From assembly GCF_012030425.1 (NCBI RefSeq), contig NZ_JAAUVN010000006.1:124001-188000 (forward strand): DNA of 64,000 bases, given 5' to 3'. The notes beneath the pieces are model-generated. The model was not told where the DNA came from and did no database searches. It saw only the letters and a list, made by a program, of their open reading frames with translations. The position numbers and the translations under genes were made by a program. This document shows, piece by piece, positions 39,578 through 46,103 of this stretch. The stretch comes from Sphingobacterium sp. B16(2022). GTDB lineage: Bacteria > Bacteroidota > Bacteroidia > Sphingobacteriales > Sphingobacteriaceae. The first letter of the stretch is position 1. Every line of letters begins with the position of its first letter.

Positions 39578-40675
39578 TTAAATTACCCATCGCTCACAGG
39601 AATCCAAAAATTCCTGGTTAATATCAGCACCAATACCCGGAAGATCCGAAAGATGAATATGATATCCTTTATATTGAATACCACCGACAACAGGATCCTC
39701 TAGATGGCCGACCATACAAGTATCCAAATCATAAAACTTCACATTCGGCGCAGCATAAGCAAAATGAACTTTCGCGGCTAAAGCCAATCGACTTTCAAGC
39801 ATCCCCCCTATCATACAGGGAATATTAAATTCAGCAGCTATTGCGGCAATTTTTAATGCCTCATGAATGCCTCCTGATTTTGAAAATTTAATATTAATAT
39901 AGTCACAGGCATCTGCACGACACAAGCGTTCCGCATCATGATGGCTATAAACAGATTCATCTGCCATGATCAGAACCGTTGTTTCGGTACGAAGTTCAGG
40001 AAGCAAATGATCTAAATAAGTACGCATAGGCTGTTCACAAAACTGAATCTTAAAAGGTTCCAGTCCCTGCAAAGCCTCTACAGCACCTTCGTATGTCCAT
40101 CCTTGATTTGCATCAATACGAATCGGCATATCAAAGCCGACCGCTTTACGGATTTCCCGAATCCTTGCGATATCCGTTTTAGGATCCTTGCCCAATTTCA
40201 CTTTCAACATCACAGCCCCTGCACGGTACAACTCTTTTGCCTTAGCTGCCATTTCTTCCGGACTGGCGATACCTAACGTGATATCGGTTACGATCTCTCG
40301 TGGAATACCTTTTAAAAATTGATATAACGGAACTCCTGCATTTTTTGATGCAATATCATATAAAGCCATGTCAAATGCAGATTTTATTGTTGTATTGCCG
40401 GCTATATACATATTTAGCTCTGCGAGACGCTCCTCTATATTTAAAGGATCTTTACCTTTCCATAACTTCGCAAAGTCACGCGCTATCACTAAACAGGTGT
40501 CCTGGGTTTCCCCTACAATCATAGGAAAGGCAGAACATTCACCAACCCCAACGATTTCGGTATCCGTACGAATCCGAATAAAGGTGTTCTGTGCAAAATC
40601 CATAGTGCCTGTTGCAATGACAAAAGGCTCCATAGGAATGCTTAATCTATAAATTTCTATTTCAGTGATTTTCAT
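39578..40675 (-). CDS. Dipeptide epimerase (L-Ala-D/L-Glu epimerase type, enolase superfamily)
   Basis: It epimerises dipeptides such as L-Ala-D-Glu released from peptidoglycan, allowing recycling or catabolism. The 365-residue protein has a capping domain and a modified TIM barrel with all expected residues: the KxK pair Lys158 and Lys160 (MLKVKLG), metal ligands Asp188 (RIDANQGW), Glu214 (CEQP), Asp239 (MADES), and the second-face base Lys266 (KFSKSGG). The DxD-type specificity loop cannot be resolved by eye, so Ala-Glu versus another dipeptide is open. No neighbouring peptidase is present. Confidence 0.88.
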   Translation of the reverse strand: MKITEIEIYRLSIPMEPFVIATGTMDFAQNTFIRIRTDTEIVGVGECSAFPMIVGETQDTCLVIARDFAKLWKGKDPLNIEERLAELNMYIAGNTTIKSAFDMALYDIASKNAGVPLYQFLKGIPREIVTDITLGIASPEEMAAKAKELYRAGAVMLKVKLGKDPKTDIARIREIRKAVGFDMPIRIDANQGWTYEGAVEALQGLEPFKIQFCEQPMRTYLDHLLPELRTETTVLIMADESVYSHHDAERLCRADACDYINIKFSKSGGIHEALKIAAIAAEFNIPCMIGGMLESRLALAAKVHFAYAAPNVKFYDLDTCMVGHLEDPVVGGIQYKGYHIHLSDLPGIGADINQEFLDSCERWVI

Positions 40676-40818
40676 GGTTTAAACTATTATGTATTTCCTA
40701 CCTCACAGCGAAAATAACAAAAGCTAAGATAGATAAAGAATATCTAAAATATAGCGCAAAGCTTATCCGTTCTAGAATTAGTTATATGCTAAAATCTATT
40801 ATTTTTTAAGGACCTGTC

Positions 40819-40845
40819 TCCGATCGACTTCTTATTGAGATCGGA
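40819..40845. repeat. Short inverted repeat at the left edge of the repeat region
   Basis: TCCGATC at 40819-40825 and GATCGGA at 40839-40845 with a 13-nt spacer. Perfect 7-bp arms. It may mark an edge or be a small hairpin. Confidence 0.5.
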
Positions 40846-40860
40846 ATACAATGCGCAAAG

Positions 40861-40910
40861 GAAAGTCCGTGAAAGTCCATGGATGTCCGTAAAAGTCCAT
40901 ACAAGTGCAT
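40861..40910. repeat. Five 10-bp degenerate tandem repeats
   Basis: Five consecutive 10-mers share the pattern nnAAGTCCrT (starts 40861, 40871, 40881, 40891, 40901). The central GTCC or GTGC is kept in every copy. Ten bases is one helical turn, so the copies face the same side of the DNA. Confidence 0.75.
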
Positions 40911-40927
40911 ACGTTATTTCGCCTTAC

Positions 40928-41334
40928 TCCGACATTGCTAGGGCATTGGCAGGACAACTCTTCGAGTCTGGTTCGAGTACCCTTCGACTATTATTCGACA
41001 GGTATTCGGCAGGGTGGCGAACACCTACCGAATAGACCACGAACAACTGTGGGGCTTGTCTCCTATCTCTCCCCTAGCAAACTCGAACTTAAGTCAAACG
41101 GCAGTCATTTCACAATTGAATAAAGTAAGAGTTGATTTCGCCCTTCGTTCGCAAAAGGTTCGAAAAGGATTCGTCTTGCTTATACTAATCCTATACCCAT
41201 CCTATACCTCGCCTATACTGAAACAGTAGACAAACGGAAGACAAACAGAAGACAAACAATAGACAAAAGGTAGAGCTTTACCGAAGGCTTCCCGAACAAA
41301 GTGCGAATAAAGAGTGAAGCATACTCTAATCAAG
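40928..41334. repeat. 11-bp phased degenerate repeat array (~37 units)
   Basis: When the sequence is cut every 11 bases from 40928, a motif with CGA at unit positions 3-5 recurs at 13 units (starts 40928, 40961, 40972, 40983, 40994, 41016, 41027, 41038, 41082, 41159, 41280, 41291, 41302), and CG at four more (41005, 41137, 41148, 41170). Three sub-blocks are near-identical: TTCG units (40961-41015, 41137-41180), TATAC units (41181-41224) and AGACAAA units (41225-41268). All blocks keep one register. 11 is not a multiple of 3, so this is not a coding repeat. Function unknown. Confidence 0.75.
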
Positions 41335-41588
41335 TAAAAGGCAGATAATCTTGATGAACCCGCTTTAAAAACTGCATCACCAATCATTAAGATGATACAA
41401 ATCATTTTATTACAACACGTAACATGCTCATTCAAAAAACAAATCACAAAGCTCTTCCAAAATACAATATCAGCAATAAAAGACTTTTTATTTACAAATA
41501 ACATAAGCTTATTTAAAATAATTTATAAAATCTATAATATTTTAATGTTTTTATTCATATATTAGCAAAGTAATAATTGAATAGGAAG

Positions 41589-44500
41589 ATGATTGAAAGT
41601 AACACAAATCAGCAAGGGCTATACGACCCGAGTTTTGAGCATGACGCCTGTGGGGTTGGTTTTGTAGCGCATATTAAAGGAATAAAATCACATGCACAGG
41701 TAAAAGATGCCTTGACCATGTTAGAAAATATGGAGCATCGTGGTGCTTGTGGCTGTGATCCAGAGAGTGGAGATGGCGCAGGTATTATGATCCAATTACC
41801 ACATGAGTTTCTTTGGGAAGAATGTATTAACCTAGGTATACAACTTAAAGAACCAGGATATTATGGAGCAGGAATGGTTTTCCTACCCAAAGAACCTGAA
41901 ATGAACAAAATTTGCAGAACAGTTATACAAGAAGCGGCTACTGAAAGGGATATGAAATTCCTTGGATTTCGGGATGTACCAGTAAGTAGAGCAGGTATAG
42001 GCCCGACAGCATTAAGCGCTGAACCCGAAATAGTTCAATTCTTTATCGACAGACCCGAGACCGTACATAACACTGAAGAATTTGAACGCAAATTATTTGT
42101 CCTCAGACGTTTGATTATCCAAAAAATCAAACAATATCAAGAATATCCACTACCGCTTTACTTCGCTTCCCTATCTTGCAAAACAATTATTTATAAAGGT
42201 CAGTTGACAACTTACCAAGTTGGCACTTATTTTAAAGACCTTCGCGATCCAAGAGTTGTTTCTGCATTTGGATTAGTACACTCTCGCTTTTCAACCAATA
42301 CTTTCCCTTCCTGGTCTTTAGCACAGCCTTTCCGTATGTTAGCGCATAATGGTGAGATCAACACATTAACAGGAAATCTGAACTGGTTTTACGCAGGCAT
42401 GCGTGCGCTTTCGTCTCCTTATTTTACAGAAGAAGAGATGGAGATCTTATTACCTGTTGTAGACCGTGGTCAATCTGATTCTGCATGTCTAGACAATGTT
42501 GCAGAACTTTTATTACACAGTGGCCGCAGCCTTTCCCATGTGATGCTGATGCTGGTCCCTGAGGCTTGGGATGGCAATACACAAATGGATCCATTAAAAC
42601 GAGCATTTTATGAGTACCACGCCACATTAATGGAACCTTGGGATGGTCCAGCTGCTCTTTGTTTTACTGATGGCAAGTCCATTGGTGCAACCCTAGATCG
42701 AAACGGATTGCGTCCTTTACGCTATGCCATTACTTCAGATCATCGAGTCATCGTTGCTTCAGAGGCAGGCGCACTCCCTATTGATGAATCAACGATCATC
42801 AAAAAAGGAAGACAACAAGCTGGTAAAATTTTCTTGGTCGATATGGAACAGGGTAAAATTTTATCTGACGAAGAGGTAAAAGGCGACTTAATACGTCAAC
42901 AGCCTTATGGCGATTGGTTAGACAGTTATAAAATAAAATTAACAGAATTGGCTGAGCCTCGTGTTACTTATACCTATCTGTCTAAAGAGTCGGTATTTAA
43001 GTATCAGCAGACTTTCGGATATTCGAGAGAAGACTTAGAAACAATTCTAACACCAATGGCACTGACCGGGTATGAGCCAACAGGTTCCATGGGATCTGAT
43101 GTACCATTAGCTATACTTTCCGATCAACCGCAACATTTATCCAGTTACTTCAAGCAGTTTTTTGCTCAAGTGACAAACCCTCCAATTGATCCAATAAGAG
43201 AGCGTTTAGTTATGAGTCTAGCAACATTCATTGGAAATGCAGGCAACATACTCATTGAAGATAAAAAATTCTGTCACTGCGTTACGCTCGAACATCCGAT
43301 ATTGACCTCGAAAGAATTAGAAAAGCTACGGTCAATAGACACGGGTGTATTTCAGGCAAAAACTTTACAATCTTACTTCCGAGCAGATGGTCAAAATGGT
43401 TCTCTGGAAGCTGGATTAGAACGCCTTTGTCGATATGCAGATGATGCTGTACGTGATGGCTTCGAAGTATTGATACTTTCAGACCGTGCCATTGATTCAC
43501 AACATGCTCCTATCCCGTCCATATTAGCTGTATCTGCAGTACATCACCATTTAATCAAAACAGGAAACCGTGGTGCTGTCGGTCTTGTTGTAGAAGCTGG
43601 AGATGCTTGGGAAGTTCATCATTTCGCATGTTTACTTGCATTTGGTGCGACTGCAATCAATCCTTACATGGCTCTTGCGAGTATTCGTACGATGAAAGAA
43701 CAAAGTAAAATCGAAACCGAATTAACATGGCCTGAACTTTCCAAAAACTATGTAAAGGCAGTAAATGCGGGATTATTAAAGATATTTTCAAAAATGGGGA
43801 TATCGACCCTGCAGTCGTATCATGGTGCACAAATTTTTGAAGTATTAGGTTTAGATAAAACTGTTGTAGACAAATATTTTTGCGGTGCCGTATCCCGTAT
43901 CGGGGGCTTAAACTTGGACGATATTGCACAGGAAGTATTGACAAAACACTGGGTGAATTTCAAAGAAAGCCGTACTCCACAAAAATTGCTTCCTGAAGGC
44001 GGTCTTTACCAATGGAAACGAAGAGGTGAAGGACATCTTTGGAACCCAGATACTGTACATCTTCTACAACAGGCTTGTCGCAATGATGATTATGCTACTT
44101 ATAAAAGATATGCGGAAAAAATAAACAACCAAAAAGAACAGATGTTCACCCTGCGTGGTTTATTAGATTTTGCTAAACATAGAACAGCAATTCCTTTAGA
44201 GGAAGTAGAACCAGCTAGTGATATTTTAAAACGTTTTGCCACAGGTGCGATGTCATTTGGTTCTATTTCACATGAAGCACACAGTACACTGGCAATTGCG
44301 ATGAACCGCATCGGTGCAAAATCAAATACTGGAGAAGGTGGTGAAGATGAGCTCCGTTATCAGCCTCTTCCTAATGGTGACTCGATGCGCTCTGCAATCA
44401 AACAAGTAGCATCCGCAAGGTTTGGCGTTACATCCAACTATCTGACACAGGCAGACGAAATACAGATCAAAATGGCTCAAGGTGCTAAACCTGGAGAGGG

Positions 44501-46103
44501 CGGTCAGCTTCCTGGACCTAAGGTTAATGAATGGATTGCTAAAACAAGACATTCAACGCCAGGTGTAGGGTTAATTTCACCGCCACCACATCATGACATC
44601 TATTCGATTGAAGATTTAGCACAATTAATCTTTGATCTAAAAAATGCAAACCGTGCTGCACGTATCAATGTCAAACTCGTTTCAAAAGCGGGTGTTGGAA
44701 CTATTGCTGCGGGTGTCGCAAAAGCACATGCCGACGTTATACTGATAGCAGGATTTGACGGAGGAACAGGAGCTTCTCCGATCAGTTCGACAAAGCACGC
44801 AGGTTTACCTTGGGAATTGGGATTAGCAGAAGCACACCAAACTTTGGTGAAAAACAAACTTAGAAGCCGTATCGTACTACAAGCAGATGGACAGGTAAAA
44901 ACTGGACGTGACATCGTTGTAGCAACCTTATTAGGTGCAGAAGAATGGGGCGTATCAACTGCTGCCCTTATTGCTGGTGGCTGTATCATGATGCGTAAGT
45001 GTCACTTGAATACTTGTCCAGTAGGTGTAGCCACACAAGATCCAGAATTAAGAAAATTATTCACCGGTAAACCTGAGGACATTGTTAACCTATTCCGCTT
45101 CATGGCCGAAGAAATCAGAGAGACCATGGCAGAATTGGGTTTCCGTACCATCAATGAAATGGTAGGAAAAGCACAGTTCCTTAAAAAACGTGAGAACATA
45201 GATCATTGGAAAGCTTCCAAAATTGATTTCTCAGGGATATTATATGTTGAGCCCAACGATCCTAATCAGTCTCTTTACAATACTGAAGAACAAGATCACG
45301 GCATGGGTATGATCTTAGACTGGGGATTATTGAAACAAGCGAAACATGCCTTAGAAAGCAAAACTCCAGTTTTTGGAACTTTCACGGTTAAAAATACGGA
45401 TCGTACCATCGGTACGCTATTGTCGAATGAGATTTCTAAACTATACGGATCCGAAGGCTTACCTGATAATACCATCAATTACAAATTTGAAGGTTCTGCG
45501 GGACAGAGTTTTGGTGCATTCTCAACAAAAGGACTATCATTTGAGTTAGAAGGTGAAGCAAATGATTATGTTGGTAAAGGATTATCTGGTGCACAATTAG
45601 CGATCTATCCGAAAGCAGAAAGTAAATTGATACCGCATGAAAATATCATCATCGGTAATGTTGCTCTATTTGGTGCTACATCGGGACATCTCTTTATTAA
45701 TGGACAAGCCGGCGAACGTTTTGCTGTTCGTAATTCAGGTGCTACGGCAGTAGTAGAAGGTCTTGGCGACCATGGTTGTGAATACATGACCGGGGGACGT
45801 GCACTTATCTTAGGAGCTACTGGAAGAAATTTCGGCGCTGGTATGAGCGGAGGTATCGCCTGGATCTATGATAAACAAGGAACATTTAGAGACAATTGCA
45901 ATACTGAAATGGTAGATCTTGATCCATTGGAACAAGAAGATGAAACAGCAATTATTGCATTGCTAAAAAGACATATTTTACTCACAAACAGCAAAATTGC
46001 ACAACATATCCTCGAAAACTGGACTGCTGAGAAAAACAGCTTTATCAAAGTATTTCCAAAAGAATACAAACAGGTATTACGTACAAAATTAGTTGAAGCA
46101 TAA
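41589..46103 (+). CDS. gltB: Glutamate synthase large (alpha) subunit
   Basis: It transfers the amide of glutamine to 2-oxoglutarate to make two glutamates. From ATG 41589 the protein has 1504 residues. The TTG at 41577 is an alternative, less likely start. Order: a 20-residue propeptide, then Cys21 in ACGVGFV, the N-terminal nucleophile of the class II glutaminase domain; central domain (about 440-780); FMN-binding synthase domain (about 800-1200) with the 3Fe-4S site CIMMRKCHLNTC; and the C-terminal GXGXG beta-helix (about 1230-1480). gltD follows 15 nt downstream. Regulation is unclear, but the 0.9-kb upstream gap holds an unusual repeat array. Confidence 0.96.
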   Translation: MIESNTNQQGLYDPSFEHDACGVGFVAHIKGIKSHAQVKDALTMLENMEHRGACGCDPESGDGAGIMIQLPHEFLWEECINLGIQLKEPGYYGAGMVFLPKEPEMNKICRTVIQEAATERDMKFLGFRDVPVSRAGIGPTALSAEPEIVQFFIDRPETVHNTEEFERKLFVLRRLIIQKIKQYQEYPLPLYFASLSCKTIIYKGQLTTYQVGTYFKDLRDPRVVSAFGLVHSRFSTNTFPSWSLAQPFRMLAHNGEINTLTGNLNWFYAGMRALSSPYFTEEEMEILLPVVDRGQSDSACLDNVAELLLHSGRSLSHVMLMLVPEAWDGNTQMDPLKRAFYEYHATLMEPWDGPAALCFTDGKSIGATLDRNGLRPLRYAITSDHRVIVASEAGALPIDESTIIKKGRQQAGKIFLVDMEQGKILSDEEVKGDLIRQQPYGDWLDSYKIKLTELAEPRVTYTYLSKESVFKYQQTFGYSREDLETILTPMALTGYEPTGSMGSDVPLAILSDQPQHLSSYFKQFFAQVTNPPIDPIRERLVMSLATFIGNAGNILIEDKKFCHCVTLEHPILTSKELEKLRSIDTGVFQAKTLQSYFRADGQNGSLEAGLERLCRYADDAVRDGFEVLILSDRAIDSQHAPIPSILAVSAVHHHLIKTGNRGAVGLVVEAGDAWEVHHFACLLAFGATAINPYMALASIRTMKEQSKIETELTWPELSKNYVKAVNAGLLKIFSKMGISTLQSYHGAQIFEVLGLDKTVVDKYFCGAVSRIGGLNLDDIAQEVLTKHWVNFKESRTPQKLLPEGGLYQWKRRGEGHLWNPDTVHLLQQACRNDDYATYKRYAEKINNQKEQMFTLRGLLDFAKHRTAIPLEEVEPASDILKRFATGAMSFGSISHEAHSTLAIAMNRIGAKSNTGEGGEDELRYQPLPNGDSMRSAIKQVASARFGVTSNYLTQADEIQIKMAQGAKPGEGGQLPGPKVNEWIAKTRHSTPGVGLISPPPHHDIYSIEDLAQLIFDLKNANRAARINVKLVSKAGVGTIAAGVAKAHADVILIAGFDGGTGASPISSTKHAGLPWELGLAEAHQTLVKNKLRSRIVLQADGQVKTGRDIVVATLLGAEEWGVSTAALIAGGCIMMRKCHLNTCPVGVATQDPELRKLFTGKPEDIVNLFRFMAEEIRETMAELGFRTINEMVGKAQFLKKRENIDHWKASKIDFSGILYVEPNDPNQSLYNTEEQDHGMGMILDWGLLKQAKHALESKTPVFGTFTVKNTDRTIGTLLSNEISKLYGSEGLPDNTINYKFEGSAGQSFGAFSTKGLSFELEGEANDYVGKGLSGAQLAIYPKAESKLIPHENIIIGNVALFGATSGHLFINGQAGERFAVRNSGATAVVEGLGDHGCEYMTGGRALILGATGRNFGAGMSGGIAWIYDKQGTFRDNCNTEMVDLDPLEQEDETAIIALLKRHILLTNSKIAQHILENWTAEKNSFIKVFPKEYKQVLRTKLVEA

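Follow-up and report, generated by a model that had tools for sequence, protein, structure and literature searches.

An orphan copy of a dispersed, helix-phased repeat family upstream of gltB in Sphingobacterium: a predicted operator track for a BldC/Xis/Apl-like protein

The window analysed here, a 64,000-nucleotide stretch of the Sphingobacterium sp. B16(2022) genome, carries ahead of gltB a run of degenerate units on an 11-bp grid. We propose that this run belongs, as an orphan copy, to a family of helix-phased operator tracks for a filament-forming protein of the BldC/Xis/Apl kind, and put the chances of this prediction at about even. We establish here the grid itself, its head-to-head order, the dispersal of the arrays, their association with DUF6266 genes, and the position and protein relationships of the HTH_17 genes found beside them.

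Grid and anatomy of the copy upstream of gltB

Across positions 40928-41334 the identity at lag 11 is 0.513, compared with a mean of 0.256 in 500 dinucleotide shuffles (z 11.2), none of which reaches the observed value; lags 22, 33 and 44 are elevated too, while lag 10 is not. The highest lag-11 value elsewhere is 0.364, among 1687 other 407-bp segments of the window, those touching 40700-41500 being excluded. Seventeen of the 21 CpGs in the interval fall in a single phase of 11 (~9e-14, simple binomial), which matches the 17 units with CG counted in the initial annotation. That annotation had claimed a constant 11-bp register and had offered lag-11 autocorrelation against shuffled sequence as its test; the register is real, and the autocorrelation lies far above the controls.

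The same annotation read the interval as one degenerate array. It is instead composed of two adjacent head-to-head elements, B and then A, with a 10-bp tandem block just upstream that had been overlooked (Table 1). Each head-to-head element has TTCG units on the left and CGAA units on the right, and is thus an array followed by its own mirror image. In element B, TTCG stands at 40961, 40972, 40983, 40994 and 41005 and CGAA at 41018, 41029, 41040 and 41084, with a central step (last TTCG to first CGAA) of 13 bp. Element A has TTCG at 41137, 41148, 41159 and 41170, then its inner units, and CGAA at 41282, 41293 and 41304, with a central step of 112 bp. Both steps are 2 modulo 11, so the CpGs stay on one grid through the centre of each element. 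The TTCG, TATAC and AGACAAA sub-blocks described earlier are arms of elements A and B. The 10-bp block gives a lag-10 z of 6.4 across 40855-40915, and the order 10-bp block, then element B, recurs at three other loci (L020, L027, L033) and in the second half of a fourth (L032).

Table 1. Positions in the window of the array elements and of the genes on either side.
Feature	Position	Strand	Remarks
Left flanking gene	39578..40675	-	365 aa; enolase-superfamily-like by eye; kept in nearest relative (context)
10-bp tandem block	40861..40912	+	type AAAGTCCGTG / AAAGTCCATG; 4-5 units, ahead of element B; TRF period 10
Element B	40928..41125	+	head-to-head 11-bp array; TTCG arm 40961-41008, CGAA arm from 41018; limits by eye
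Element A	41137..41330	+	head-to-head 11-bp array; TTCG and CGAA outer arms, TATAC and AGACAAA inner units; limits by eye
gltB (right flanking gene)	41589..46103	+	name from the initial annotation; start codon picked by similarity to G157 (context)

The TTCG registers of A and B differ by 176 bp, a multiple of 11. A second A+B pair in the same genome (G000 C11:1514236 and 1514599) has registers 363 bp apart, also a multiple of 11. A register rule between neighbouring separate hairpins was rejected, since A/B pairs elsewhere than in this genome show offsets of 3 or 6. A further suggestion, that indels came in multiples of 11, holds in part: among gaps between homologous type B copies (109 pairs) there is a local peak, with 79 at 11 bp, 24 at 10 and 19 at 12, but gaps of 1-3 bp are commoner still, and alignments of repeats favour gaps of unit length. 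A coding role, named in the initial annotation as the finding that would contradict it, was rejected: only mechanical ORFs cross the interval, and ORFs running through arrays cluster together because the repeats themselves do.

DUF6266 and HTH_17 genes beside the arrays

Clustering of the ORFs at 119 array loci, with 44 of the 150 fetched loci (those outside Bacteroidota) left out, returned a recurrent family beside the arrays, Pfam PF19781 (DUF6266). The own genome holds eight DUF6266 matches; seven have 11 as their best upstream lag, and the remaining one stands second in a tandem pair. At 38 DUF6266 loci an identity of at least 0.5 at lag 10 or 11 was found upstream in 31 and downstream in one (Fisher 4e-13); farther off at the same loci it was found once far upstream and twice far downstream, one of the latter being a run of N. 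Counted by 50%-identity DUF6266 protein cluster, the ratio is 14/20 upstream versus 1/20 downstream. The phylum set gave 18/28 versus 5/28 as run, and 17/23 versus 5/23 after hand pruning of three misplaced loci (L348, L349, L362) and two that belong to the family (L353, L356), several values lying at exactly 0.50. The motifs differ from one DUF6266 locus to the next and include TTCG, TTACC, CTTACG, GCTAACTATAT, AATAGGGG and others; at these loci the period is kept and the sequence is not. The earlier proposal that the spacing is under selection agrees with this result, spacing rather than sequence being the conserved feature. The converse link is weak. Of the array loci taken from genomes of the family (L157-L186, 30 in all), three have a DUF6266 ORF in their fetched flanks, and most arrays are therefore orphans. 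By genome, and ignoring phylogeny, DUF6266 is present in 36 of 40 array genomes versus 33 of 111 others; four array-bearing genomes have no DUF6266 match.

The sequence TAnnTTTG, which we take to be the Bacteroidota promoter box, stands ~51-111 bp before the start codon at 18 of the 38 DUF6266 loci, where shuffles predict 2.5. This promoter-like box is downstream of the array, so at these loci the array precedes the promoter and stays outside the message. By eye, a palindrome GTACCGGTAC or a close variant follows just after the box in many DUF6266 leaders (L217-L254). Genes within 1.5 kb downstream encode a three-helix membrane protein at 18 of the 38 loci, a CHAP-domain protein at 13, a lipoprotein-like membrane protein at 8, a second DUF6266 at 9 or DUF5675 at 3. 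By our own reading these neighbours resemble lysis genes. The C-terminal half of DUF6266 has a fibronectin-like fold. Upstream of two DUF6266 cassettes in the own genome (L278:2503-3408 and L279:2126-3851) lie, by eye and similarity, a LytTR-like regulator and a sensor/response-regulator pair, possible inputs to the cassette. Two other own-genome DUF6266 copies (L280:3978-5350 and L281:3874-5506) are 97% identical over 1193 bp, both with an IS-like repeat of ~80 bp (ends AACCCGTTGTGCAT) on their flanks; at L280 an 8-bp direct repeat TATCGCTA flanks these ends, by eye.

A phage origin of DUF6266 was considered and set aside, with no useful PHROG or PADLOC match. Its viral relatives comprise two 4.3-kb IMG/VR contigs (L275, L276) and one 8-kb phage record; none has a convincing array (L275 is of low complexity, L276 gives 0.51 at lag 11 and L277 0.35). 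On both IMG/VR contigs DUF6266 is followed by ORFs that are presumably holin-like, muramidase-like and lipoprotein-like, with a presumed integrase-like neighbour on L275 and presumed Cas1/Cas2-like neighbours on L276, all of these names being given from the translations. No DUF6266 gene was found on plasmids, and no paper naming the family was found in a literature search that mostly did not extend to subscription journals.

At 16 of the 38 loci (a tandem pair counting twice) DUF6266 is preceded by a same-strand gene for a small winged-helix protein, and the array separates the two; the other 22 have no same-strand HTH_17 gene upstream. In single-protein searches the own-genome winged-helix protein, encoded at G000 C11:1000530-1000880, matched Pfam PF12728 (HTH_17), and its PHROG matches were excisionases. 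A structure search with a single HTH protein alone gave nothing useful, while a profile of 20 HTH proteins placed the BldC-DNA structures 6ama and 6amk at the top (E 3e-8). The predicted model (pLDDT 93) has a long helix (2-63) and a winged helix like those of MerR regulators and excisionases, at Z under 8. By profile and model, the cassette HTH protein belongs to the BldC/Xis winged-helix superfamily, whose fold is also common to MerR regulators.

Two further observations are in keeping with the operator-track reading. Where the recognition helix reads YYR, in six cassettes, there are 8-13 phased TTCG/CGAA pairs; 14 other cassettes have at most three. Among 29 usable loci matched by the YYR profile, an array follows the HTH gene in 10 of 14 with DUF6266 and in 0 of 15 without; one truncated, misframed locus (L380) was left out of the statistical test. 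Two results speak against a simple code: outside DUF6266 cassettes YYR loci have no arrays, and in non-seed loci the comparison of YYR with TTCG arrays (2/11 versus 0/13, p 0.20) is not significant. At least 13 matches occur in 8/8 genomes with a strong YYR-type HTH versus 4/143 of the rest, six of the eight being profile seeds and phylogeny being ignored. Shared ancestry of whole cassettes could also be the reason for this pairing of helix and motif. A general HTH profile proved uninformative as a genome marker, matching 143 of 151 genomes. In front of another own-genome array (L022) lies a truncated HTH_17 frame, which gives at least one orphan the look of a decayed cassette. Near the copy upstream of gltB no cassette gene or remnant was found in the 64 kb at E 1e-3, and relaxed matches (E 0.05-1) are short fragments only; this copy is an orphan, with no cassette alongside.

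Dispersal, arm register and alternative explanations

A pattern of three phased TTCGs matches the own genome 26 times forward and 10 times in reverse, compared with 2 and 3 for the pattern read backwards. The DNA search led to at least 13 own-genome array loci, the window copy among them; by eye they lie between long ORFs with no favoured gene orientation, and short mechanical ORFs cross some of them. Four phased TTCGs occur in 40 of 151 genomes of the family, Sphingobacteriaceae, and 14 of 296 phylum genomes. The genera among the matches listed are Sphingobacterium, Pedobacter, Parapedobacter, Daejeonella, Olivibacter and Chitinophaga, and other phyla also matched; overlapping loci of one place were merged before several counts. 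A search for the 11-bp pattern in other gaps and genomes, which the initial annotation had recommended, thus recovers it widely. The mobile repeat family of the genus offered there is indeed a dispersed repeat family, but its range is the bacterial family and, sporadically, the phylum rather than one genus.

In two relatives, recent array duplicates of 0.33-1.1 kb bring neighbouring DNA along, which suggests spread by recombination rather than by precise transposition; no target duplication was seen by eye at these duplicates. Fresh duplicates at L323-L325 (G090) and at L328 and L330 (G142) lie upstream of ORFs that by eye resemble secreted thioredoxin-fold proteins, a possible second gene context for arrays. 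In Sphingobacterium nematocida (L084:261-4559) a 1432-residue frame crosses an array and a second 11-bp block, of CTAGTT type, at the frame start. In Paraflavisolibacter caeni (L052, L086, L092) long 11-bp runs with other motifs, such as GCCGTACTTTA, adjoin TTCG units, which suggests that 11-bp phasing extends beyond the TTCG type in Chitinophagaceae.

The alternative that survives best, though we judge it unlikely, is a neutral satellite that grows and shrinks by slippage, is homogenised within each array and is carried about by recombination, its register being the footprint of unit-wise growth. Such a satellite would account for the recombination-borne duplicates, for the local gap peak at 11 bp, for the patchy presence of arrays within a genus, and for the resemblance of units within one array, which share 4.5/7 variable positions, with little decay with unit distance, versus 2.0 for units of different loci (281 arrays, some from other phyla). 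It leaves unexplained why arrays with different motifs stand upstream of DUF6266 in unrelated genomes, and why the reverse arm order is nearly absent: among 81 neighbouring chains TTCG precedes CGAA 78 times and follows it three times.

This arm order would be expected if each element formed a hairpin RNA or a cruciform with a long imperfect stem, one face of which is read by a protein or an RNase; a turn of A-form duplex takes about 11 bp. RNAfold gives -38 to -105 kcal/mol for 13 elements, values that have no shuffle control. In a pairing test of 80 hairpins, a few from other phyla, the innermost facing units pair best (3.94/7), yet facing units overall match at 3.49/7, not detectably better than the remaining units within the same hairpin (3.21, p 0.16); units of other hairpins match at 2.30. 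A stem requires no 11-bp register across its loop, yet the TTCG-to-CGAA step is 0, 1 or 2 modulo 11 in 75 of 78 distinct family loops, with steps of 12-113 bp; a far-pair control, which overlapping loci had inflated, was set aside. The promoter-like box downstream of the array at DUF6266 loci is a further point against an RNA, and Rfam, searched with window positions 40600-41700 at E up to 1, matched no family. Taken together, the loop register and pairing data are easier to reconcile with units phased along linear DNA than with a stem selected for its pairing, and we regard the hairpin as improbable.

The neighbourhood of gltB itself was compared with its closest relative found (G157, GltB N-terminus 100%), which has the same two flanking genes. 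The matching flanks enclose ~119 bp in G157 versus ~711 bp in the window and are too diverged for an insertion site to be read; an empty-site comparison of a 20-kb stretch with G157 returned paralogous matches. A phased TTCG array is absent from the 1000 bases before gltB in 28/28 relatives with upstream sequence, G157 included (strands accounted for; L193 cut at a contig end; nine further matching genomes not fetched), and a single relative (L210) has one chance CGAA pair there and no phased TTCG. A curved-DNA scaffold or insulator specific to gltBD, as first suggested, could draw on the phased CpG steps but is very improbable, because the array is missing before gltB in all testable relatives and the other own-genome copies adjoin other genes.

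The operator-track reading and known systems

The binding mode that the arrays call to mind is that of Xis, Apl, BldC and RdfS, which, in the available text of the reports, load as cooperative filaments onto direct repeats of low consensus that are spaced by one helical turn (PMC7498355, PMC5859096, PMC11963761). Phage 186 Apl is described as occupying seven sites 10-11 bp apart between the lytic and lysogenic promoters (PMC7498355), and lambda Xis-Fis as using the same cooperative, low-specificity direct-repeat mode (PMC7145599). For Streptomyces BldC, the text consulted reports a variable number of degenerate direct repeats, head-to-tail oligomers and, at smeA-sffA, four protected tracts one helical turn apart (PMC5859096).

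The window copy shares with these operators direct repeats 10-11 bp apart (lag 11 z 11.2; lag 10 z 6.4) and a low consensus, units varying within and between arrays. As far as the Apl and lambda Xis sources go (PMC7498355, PMC7145599), their operators are alike in having 10-11 bp tandem repeats, low consensus and a linked small winged-helix gene, and the tie of Apl to lysis-lysogeny control has a counterpart in a cassette that by our reading of its genes is lysis-like. Unlike those operators, the arrays here have up to ten units per arm, are mirrored and occur in many dispersed copies on a Bacteroidota chromosome, and no integrase was seen beside the own-genome cassettes. BldC is the nearest solved relative of the cassette HTH proteins by sequence profile; it differs from them at the N-terminus, where these have the long helix, and, in the portions of the report available, in the 9-bp elements of the whiI structure, mirrored arms not being described there (PMC5859096).

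Several observations sit less easily with the operator-track reading. The window copy has no cassette gene beside it, 22 of the 38 DUF6266 loci are without an upstream HTH_17 gene, and the TTCG/CGAA arms are mirrored, an arrangement not described in the available text for known RDF operators, which are direct repeats; many of the 10-bp blocks are one-directional. Given the missing winged-helix gene, we say that the window copy would work like an RDF/BldC-type operator, not that it is one. REP/BIME elements and MITEs are likewise dispersed, intergenic, palindromic and present in many copies, but the REP/BIME unit is, in the text available, a conserved 20-40 bp palindrome (PMC3733652), whereas copies here share an 11-bp grid with a changing motif and not one palindrome. 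Among the recurrent flank clusters shown, none was recognised as a transposase, RAYT being the type associated with REP/BIME. As for a target-site duplication of the MITE type, the relatives' duplicates show none by eye, and the window flanks are too diverged.

Our inferences concern binding, the formation of filaments, regulation, lysis and a possible role at gltB, and run as follows. A single monomer of a BldC/Xis/Apl-like protein (Pfam HTH_17) would recognise each 10- or 11-bp unit as a weak and degenerate site; monomers would load head-to-tail, one per helical turn and on the same face of the DNA, and the two inverted arms would hold two converging filaments. In the full arrangement, the HTH_17 gene, the array, a putative promoter, DUF6266, and small membrane-protein and peptidoglycan-hydrolase-like genes would follow one another, and the filament would switch the lysis-like cassette in the manner of phage 186 Apl between lytic and lysogenic promoters. 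The copy at gltB, lacking a cassette, may be a relic or a site at which the same protein acts in trans. The excisionase/BldC binding mode would predict just such a long 11-bp array, with an HTH gene beside it and a lysis-like operon downstream, and the original idea that the copies face one side of the DNA for a protein is the best explanation we can offer, with binding as its predicted part.

No published description of these arrays was found in titles and the beginnings of abstracts, subscription journals lying mostly outside the search. The arrays appear to be undescribed, and probably represent a variant of a known operator type, with binding predicted. DUF6266 gains a candidate partner in the HTH_17 protein, and is placed in operons that also encode CHAP-domain and small membrane proteins. 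Helical spacing, not sequence, is seemingly what evolution keeps, and this is visible across many genomes. A wider and more doubtful reading is that Bacteroidota possess a hitherto undescribed regulatory network in which a BldC/Xis-like filament protein and genome-wide 11-bp tracks, the period kept while protein and motif change together, are wired to a multi-copy, domesticated DUF6266 lysis-like cassette. If that reading were true, a single protein could tie lysis to the activity of distant promoters, the gltB promoter among them. If the tracks are operators, the low-specificity, cooperative operators of excisionases and BldC would extend to long, mirrored and dispersed tracks.
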